Positions 17,525-19,233 of a stretch of 49,004 nt of DNA are shown piece after piece. The position numbers were made by a program, and so were the translations under genes. Position 1 is the first letter of the stretch. Each line of letters begins with the position of its first letter. This stretch comes from Hyphomicrobiales bacterium (GTDB lineage Bacteria; Pseudomonadota; Alphaproteobacteria; Rhizobiales; JACESI01), in the NCBI GenBank assembly GCA_039973685.1, contig JBDWKL010000029.1:1-49004 (forward strand), given 5' to 3'. The notes beneath the pieces were generated by a model that saw only the letters and a program-made list of their open reading frames with translations, had not been told where the DNA came from and did not search any database.

Positions 17525-17811
17525 CAAAGTTGGTCTCAATCGAGGATGGTTTGGGCGCCAATACACCACAGGCAACGTTGGTAAAATTTTAACCTTCTTT
17601 GGAGTGTTCTCATGTTTTTACCCTATTGTAACCTCTGTCGACTAGGGTGGTTTGATTATTTTGGTAGGGGTGCTTAGCGCTTTCGCTTTGAGGCGAAGAG
17701 CAAGTGGTGGTTAAGGCGACTATCGAATTTTACGGTATTTAGAAATATAATTGTTAGAACGTCCCTATACTCTCCAAAGGACTAGTTGTTCATTCGTTTT
17801 TATCTGATATG
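17525..17811. other. Intergenic stretch between mmcB and phaZ
   Basis: Most of this 392-bp gene-free gap (to 17916) holds no coding frame I would support. There is a small imperfect hairpin near 17680-17705 (around gctttcgctttgaggcgaag) without a T-run, and no clear terminator for mmcB. The right-hand end holds the operator-like pair described separately. Confidence 0.5.
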
Positions 17812-17845
17812 GTGCACTGCAAAATAGATGGTTGCACTGCAAAAT
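17812..17845. promoter_or_regulatory. Paired PhaR-like operators upstream of phaZ
   Basis: Two near-identical 15-bp boxes, GGTGCACTGCAAAAT (17811-17825) and GTTGCACTGCAAAAT (17831-17845), have starts exactly 20 bp apart. The second contains the perfect palindrome TTGC-ACT-GCAA; the first differs by one base. TGC-N3-GCA is the type of site bound by PhaR, the PHB-sensing repressor of phasin and PHA genes in alphaproteobacteria. The last box ends 71 bp before the phaZ ATG, as expected for an operator in its promoter. The assignment is inferred; no phaR gene is in the window. Confidence 0.6.
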
Positions 17846-17916
17846 TTTAAGATTTGAGCACTCATCGAATATCGGTCTTGCACGGGCAAGCCGTTTTCCA
17901 GTTGAAAGGCTTTTTA

Positions 17917-19233
17917 ATGTCGTTTTATTTCTTGCACGAAATGACCCATGCGACCATGAGCCCATGGCGTACAATGGCTGAAACCACGCGTGCACTCGTC
18001 AATAATTCGATGAGCCCACTGGCGAACACGCCGGTTGTGAGATCGCTTGATGCGGGTTTTGAAGTGTTTGAACGGGCAACACGCCAATATGGCAAACCGG
18101 CTTTCGGCATTACAGAAATTGAAATCGACGGCGTGCCATTAAGCGTGTCTGAAAAAACGGTGTGGTCAGATACCTTTTGTAACTTGATCCAGTTTCAACG
18201 CATGGCGCCAGCTGGCCAAGGGCCTGACATGGAAGGTCGCCTTTCCAAAGTTGTGGTTGTGGCTCCAATGTCTGGGCATTATTCAACATTGTTACGAGGA
18301 ACTGTTGAAGGATTGCTCCCTTATCATGATGTCTACATCACTGATTGGGTCGATGCCCGCCAGGTTCCAATCACAGACGGTTCTTTCGATCTTGATGATT
18401 ATATTGATTACGTCATCAACATTGCTCATCATTTTGAGGGTGATGTTCACTTTGTCGCTGTATGCCAGCCGTCAGTTCCTGTTCTAGCAGCTGTTGCACG
18501 CATGGAAGAACTTGGAGATCCGCTTGCGCCAAAATCAATGACATTGATGGGTGGGCCAATTGATACGCGGATCAATCCAACGGTCGTGAACGACCTAGCG
18601 CAGAAAAACGATCTCGATTGGTTTGAAAACAACGTCATAATGACTGTTCCTTTCCCGCATCCTGGTGTCATGCGCCGAGTTTATCCAGGCTTCTTGCAAC
18701 TCTCAGGTTTCATGAGCATGAATTTGGATCGCCATGTGAGTGCGCAGCGTGAGTTTTATAATCACCTTGTCGAAGGTGATGGGGAATCGGCTGACAAACA
18801 CCGTGAGTTTTATGACGAATATATGGCTGTGATGGATTTAACGGCTGAGTTTTACCTCCAAACGGTTGACACAGTTTTCATTCGTCATGCTCTTGCAACA
18901 GGCGACATGATGCACCGTGATGAATTGGTGAAAACGGAAGCCATCAAGAATGTGGCTCTATTGACGGTTGAAGGTGAGAAAGACGACATTTCTGGTGTTG
19001 GTCAAACAGAAGCCGCTCATTCCCTCTGCTCGAATATTCCAGATAGCAAACGGATGCATTATGTGCAGCCTGAAGTCGGCCATTATGGCGTGTTCAATGG
19101 TTCGCGCTTTAGAAAAGGTATCCGACCTAAGATTACAGAGTTCGTTCTAAAAGCTGACCAGCGCACAAAATTAGCGCCAAAACCCGCTAAGGGTAAAAAG
19201 GTTGTGCCTGCTAAAAAAGCAGCCAAAAGCTAA
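17917..19233 (+). CDS. phaZ: Intracellular poly(3-hydroxybutyrate) depolymerase
   Basis: A 438-residue granule-associated depolymerase that mobilises intracellular PHB. There is no signal peptide. The family triad is visible: Cys183 in FVAVCQPSVPVLA replaces the usual serine nucleophile, as in PhaZa1-type enzymes, with Asp356 in VEGEKDDISG and His389 in VGHYGVFNG. The N-terminus MSFYFLHEMTHATMSPWRTM is typical of the family. The frame reaches back to 17854, but ATG at 17917 has GAAAGG seven bases upstream. The last 20 residues form a Lys/Ala/Pro-rich tail (PAKGKKVVPAKKAAKS), unlike the globular domain and possibly used for granule or nucleoid contact. It follows two PhaR-like operators and ends in a terminator. 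Confidence 0.95.
   Translation: MSFYFLHEMTHATMSPWRTMAETTRALVNNSMSPLANTPVVRSLDAGFEVFERATRQYGKPAFGITEIEIDGVPLSVSEKTVWSDTFCNLIQFQRMAPAGQGPDMEGRLSKVVVVAPMSGHYSTLLRGTVEGLLPYHDVYITDWVDARQVPITDGSFDLDDYIDYVINIAHHFEGDVHFVAVCQPSVPVLAAVARMEELGDPLAPKSMTLMGGPIDTRINPTVVNDLAQKNDLDWFENNVIMTVPFPHPGVMRRVYPGFLQLSGFMSMNLDRHVSAQREFYNHLVEGDGESADKHREFYDEYMAVMDLTAEFYLQTVDTVFIRHALATGDMMHRDELVKTEAIKNVALLTVEGEKDDISGVGQTEAAHSLCSNIPDSKRMHYVQPEVGHYGVFNGSRFRKGIRPKITEFVLKADQRTKLAPKPAKGKKVVPAKKAAKS

Follow-up and report, generated by a model that had tools for sequence, protein, structure and literature searches.

Upstream of phaZ, the gene for an intracellular PHB depolymerase in a Hyphomicrobiales genome, lie two near-identical boxes that raise the question of whether the depolymerase is under direct control of PhaR (AniA), and of what a paired operator with a regular spacing might mean there. 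The window, by which we mean the whole 49,004-nucleotide stretch analysed, is contig C29, one of 55 that make up a 3.23-Mb genome, and within it phaZ lies between an MmcB-like gene on its upstream side and a DUF2852 gene on its downstream side (Table 1).

Table 1. Position, strand and supporting basis of phaZ and of the predicted elements upstream of it (window coordinates).
Feature	Position	Strand	Basis
Possible -35 element TTGTTC (inferred)	17786..17791	+	TTG cluster in phaZ upstream alignments
Possible -10 element TATGGT (inferred), sharing its last base with the start of the box 1 core	17808..17813	+	TAT left-arm bias
PhaR box 1 (predicted), 21-bp site, core TGCACTGCA 17813-17821	17807..17827	.	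S. meliloti matrix 22.9 bits; consensus core YGCRNYGCR
PhaR box 2 (predicted), 21-bp site, core TGCACTGCA 17833-17841	17827..17847	.	S. meliloti matrix 15.2 bits
phaZ, intracellular PHB depolymerase, 438 aa	17917..19233	+	TIGR01849 614 bits (cut-off 300.75), E 8.8e-185; PF06850 E 3.9e-99

The initial annotation described two 15-bp boxes with 14 identical bases and a 20-bp period, and this was exact on re-comparison: segments 17811-17825 and 17831-17845 match at 14 of 15 bases with an offset of 20 bp, the sole mismatch being 17812 (G) against 17832 (T), while 17811 and 17813-17825 equal 17831 and 17833-17845. Its further statement that both boxes face the same side of the DNA holds roughly, two turns of 10.5 bp making 21 bp against the 20 bp seen. 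The TGCACTGCA cores begin 104 and 84 bases 5' of the phaZ ATG at 17917. Strict boxes (TGCRNYGCA) occur five times in the window (8794, 17813, 17833, 35805 and 47595), and the three away from phaZ lie within ORFs of 394, 147 and 372 codons; at the window's own box density the probability of two strict boxes inside 300 bp is about 5e-4. The two copies share 17 bases reaching beyond the core (17809-17825 against 17828-17845 minus one inserted T), and this extended identity with its single inserted base suggests that box 2 arose by local duplication.

A single phaR match was found in the genome (PF05233 and TIGR01848, both above cut-off, the latter at 148.6 bits against 109.45), its presence being one of three points, with the motif near other pha genes and PhaR binding, on which the initial annotation had staked its proposal of PhaR-like operators. 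With a scoring matrix built from 17 S. meliloti PhaR sites in efficiently bound promoters (training median 20.9 bits), box 1 came top among 48,984 window positions and box 2 next, the third-ranked position scoring 13.4 bits; both cores fit the published core and both have AT-rich arms. Box 1 is thus a strong predicted PhaR site. The best score over 20 shuffled windows was 15.6 bits, so box 2 falls inside the shuffled range; it would be a weaker site, marginal on score alone, that gains credit from its place. The exact 11-mer TTGCACTGCAA, put forward in the initial annotation as a genome search string, proved unsuitable as a regulon marker and was dropped: it occurs only twice, in box 2 and at C18:38404 inside a 995-codon open frame, and with one mismatch allowed on both strands it was hardly more frequent than its reversed control (74 versus 61). 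The sites are marked by the degenerate PhaR motif, which was taken in its place, and not by this exact string.

The second point, the presence of the motif near other pha genes, was borne out except at phaC. A profile search returned two phasin matches and one phaC match in the genome. Box pairs precede both phasin genes (20 bp apart on C43 and 30 bp apart on C50). The gap between phaR and the divergently transcribed phaA-like gene for acetyl-CoA acetyltransferase holds a single box, with the first base of the core 57 bases ahead of the phaA-like ATG. This single box (L001:2014-2034) is strong at 23.5 bits and lies closer to the thiolase start. No PhaR site was found at phaC, where the best score of the locus with the S. 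meliloti matrix was 4.3 bits. Together with the top two matrix ranks and the phaR match, these sites support the PhaR-like identification, and we consider it very probable that the boxes are PhaR operators through which phaZ would be repressed, releasably by PHB, by way of box 1 and the weaker box 2.

Six close box pairs were found in the genome, the reversed control giving none: those at phaZ and the two phasin genes, one at an etfA-hbd junction, and two (C12 and C48) inside long open frames. The pair at the etfA-hbd junction (C20:82486-82514; L114:1501-1529) is spaced by 20 bp, and hbd encodes 3-hydroxybutyryl-CoA dehydrogenase (NF005715, 522.3 bits). As its boxes score 12.2 and 9.3 bits with the same matrix they would be weak sites, and the pair is possibly a further PhaR target. 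The etfA-hbd junction also carries a 20-bp pair in G043 and G118 (L150 and L160), two of the three genus mates, and the pair list of the third, G083, holds none at this junction; among the literature matches listed, judged by title, no link of PhaR to 3-hydroxybutyryl-CoA dehydrogenase or etfA was found.

At phaZ itself the three genus mates differ from the window. One box each was found in G118 and G043, and in G083 none lay within 300 bp of the gene, which counts against the PhaR reading; two boxes occur in 0 of 3, and because box 2 is absent from all three genus mates this predicted site is specific to the window's lineage. Pairs stand before both phasin types in 4 of 4 genomes of the genus. 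The two types hold distinct spacings (loci L116 and L118 in the own genome; L151, L153, L154, L158, L159 and L161 in the others), of 18-20 bp for the first type (20, 19, 19 and 18 bp in G000, G043, G083 and G118) and 30-32 bp for the second (30, 31, 32 and 30 bp in the same order). A wider survey took in at least 80 phaZ loci of named genomes, of which 78 were long enough upstream to be used (L092 and L107 were left out of the box, TAT and TTG counts as too short, and L037 of the TTG count for N bases). Among the matches listed, a strict box lay within 400 bp upstream of phaZ in 52 of 78, versus 0 of 78 equal coding stretches, a rough control in that coding DNA differs in composition from upstream DNA; the remaining 26 of 78 phaZ genes listed, with no strict box, count against the PhaR reading.

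The same survey bears on the promoter. When the count was confined to phaZ genes preceded by a strict box at 20-200 bases, among the matches listed, TTG was found 27-31 bases before the core 26 times in 46 regions. The best single offset reached up to 8, where shuffled sequence gave a 95% limit of 5 for the best offset. Of 47 boxes, 17 had TAT in the left arm and 5 had it at the mirrored place on the right. The window has a matching layout (TTGTTC-16-TATGGT), and those of G118 and G043 are similar, so box 1 may overlap the -10 element of phaZ. Because a promoter scanner returned no + strand promoter in the phaZ upstream region, which also counts against the PhaR reading, this promoter position is one that we infer. 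Comparison by eye with the C43 phasin suggested an arrangement in which box 2 forms the phaZ -35; it was abandoned for lack of a -10.

A conventional mechanism can be proposed on this basis. When polymer is absent, free PhaR would occupy box 1, probably covering the -10 region and start of phaZ, and would also bind the weaker box 2, which lies 20 bp further downstream and faces roughly the same way, so that RNA polymerase would be blocked. As PHB accumulates, PhaR would, following the published model, be drawn onto the granules and off the DNA, and phasins and depolymerase would then be produced together. At the phaZ boxes, PhaR binding, repression, PHB release and any cooperativity are steps that we infer.

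Searching 121 genomes of the order with the pattern TGCRNYGCA-N(1-31)-TGCRNYGCA, and with the reversed pattern as control, gave 525 pairs versus 49. A pair was present in 101 of 104 genomes with a PF05233 match (510 pairs in total) and in 8 of 17 without one (15 pairs in total), an association that counts genomes singly and ignores their kinship; G016, an 88% complete genome, has 5 of these 15 pairs and no PF05233 match, which counts against the PhaR reading. Pairs at 29-32 bp numbered 99 in PF05233 genomes versus 0 in the others. In another genome of the order, a pair 40 bp apart stands directly before a phaR homologue (L147:1501-1549).

The spacings of these pairs were binned from the full per-genome tables, with control sums added by hand. 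The commonest class was 18-22 bp (245 pairs, 49.0 per spacing; reversed control 12), with 72 pairs at 23-28 bp (12.0 per spacing; control 8), 99 at 29-32 bp (24.8 per spacing; control 7) and 109 over the rest of the 10-40 bp range (6.8 per spacing). The 18-22 and 29-32 bp classes lie about one helical turn apart and phasing therefore appears favoured, in keeping with the 20 bp at phaZ, itself near whole turns. It is a bias and not a rule: a strict helical law was rejected, as 72 of 525 pairs fall at 23-28 bp, where the density of 12.0 per spacing exceeds the 6.8 outside the three bins. The out-of-phase pairs include AT-rich clusters at 23 bp (10) and 26 bp (6). In two related genomes (L178 and L179, 1952-1987), 26-bp pairs upstream of a second phasin-like ORF are exceptions to the bias.

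The pair counts are not independent, because two phasin types supply many of the pairs. When fetched loci were assigned by phmmer, C43-type phasins had pairs at 18-21 bp and C50-type phasins at 30-33 bp, with L140 (20 bp) as an exception and L130 holding a further 18-bp pair, and the spacing classes are thus partly those of two conserved phasin promoters. TTGAC lies on the gene strand between the boxes in 5 of 11 fetched C50-type promoters, in the manner of the S. meliloti phasin pairs, which flank the -35. Other lineages have, among the matches listed, phaZ pairs spaced by 19, 20, 29, 30 and 50 bp when the limit is set at 60 bp. Eight strict phaZ pairs within 60 bp, the window's included (19, 20, 20, 29, 30, 30, 30 and 50 bp), gave a Rayleigh R of 0.96, 0.95 and 0.87 at periods of 10, 10.5 and 11 (p about 6e-4, 8e-4 and 2e-3, respectively), with five longer spacings (94 to 285) left out and three loci of one Thalassospira-like group, by the analyst's grouping, entered once. 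A wider proposal, to which we would give somewhat less than an even chance, is that PhaR of this order binds pairs on one DNA face, about two to three turns apart with the PhaR units touching, that such pairs arose separately at phaZ, at the two phasin paralogues and at etfA-hbd, and that PhaR of the genus would also control 3-hydroxybutyryl-CoA dehydrogenase.

The main competing account of the phaZ pair keeps PhaR and dispenses with cooperation: box 1 would be the sole operator, and box 2 a copy of 17-18 bases, recently duplicated in place and of little consequence. We regard this as possible, if on the doubtful side. The genus mates, with at most one box at phaZ, the score of just 15.2 bits for box 2 and the shared bases reaching beyond the core are all as it would predict, but no spacing class is commoner in the order than 18-22 bp, with 245 pairs, and other lineages also have pairs spaced by about 20 and 30 bp at phaZ. 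A chance or mutational tandem repeat with no regulatory function is another account, as a local duplication could by itself yield two boxes 20 bp apart; the low probability of two boxes in 300 bp (about 5e-4) and the occurrence of a phaZ box in G118 and G043, as well as in 52 of 78 phaZ genes among the matches listed, make this hardly credible.

That the boxes serve some other regulator whose palindrome is similar would fit the pairs kept in 8 of 17 genomes lacking a PF05233 match (15 pairs), but pairs are far commoner where phaR is present (510 in 104 genomes), the boxes match PhaR-bound S. meliloti sites, and the motif recurs at both phasin genes and beside phaR, so we hold another regulator to be quite improbable. 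We accordingly retain PhaR as the probable regulator.

A PhaR-phaZ link is already known, since it has been published in S. meliloti and Bradyrhizobium diazoefficiens, with Rhodobacter sphaeroides, in which PhaR represses phaZ in the same regulatory link, as cited in PMC6201568. In S. meliloti, PhaR (AniA) sites with the consensus core YGCRNYGCR are reported at phaP1, phaP2, SMa1961 and phaZ; PhaR binds and represses the phaZ promoter, and accumulated PHB sequesters PhaR, lifting the repression of phasin and depolymerase (PMC12542648). In the same study, phaZ promoter activity tracked repression and PhaZ protein did not (r2 0.2543), which counts against the PhaR reading. The present genome resembles that system in its core, its AT-rich arms and the two copies before phasins, which in S. 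meliloti flank the -35 and of which either is enough for binding in vitro (PMC12542648). It differs in that the phaZ of S. meliloti is described with one site, just downstream of the -35, and the PhaR-bound phaP pairs listed there are 18 and 28 bp apart (Table 3, PMC12542648), 28 falling in our out-of-phase 23-28 bin. In B. diazoefficiens, PhaR sites TGCRNYGCASMA are given at phaP1, phaP4, phaZ1 and phaZ3 (PMC6201568, PMC10888616), and PhaR binds the phaZ1 and phaZ3 promoters (PMC6201568); a later study places phaZ1 under PhaR control and phaZ3 outside it (PMC10888616), which counts against the PhaR reading. The core TGCRNYGCA, the direct phaZ promoter binding and the two sites around the phaP1 -35 are likenesses to our locus, at which that binding is predicted, whereas one site is listed per phaZ gene and the consensus ends in SMA where window box 1 reads AAA after the core. 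A limited literature search, covering sources in part, found neither a double PhaR site at phaZ nor an order-wide spacing bias, which is weak evidence of absence.

The phaZ box pair is most likely an ordinary, already described control by which the presence of polymer turns on its own breakdown enzyme, and as such it confirms published biology and opens no new question. From sequence, direct control of PHB breakdown by PhaR would thereby reach a lineage not studied before. The operator and its arrangement in pairs, judged in the same way, are widespread in the order, where the spacing bias offers a simple testable prediction on how PhaR binds pairs. Should the wider proposal be true, PhaR in this genus would connect the state of the granules with one more step in C4 acyl-CoA metabolism.
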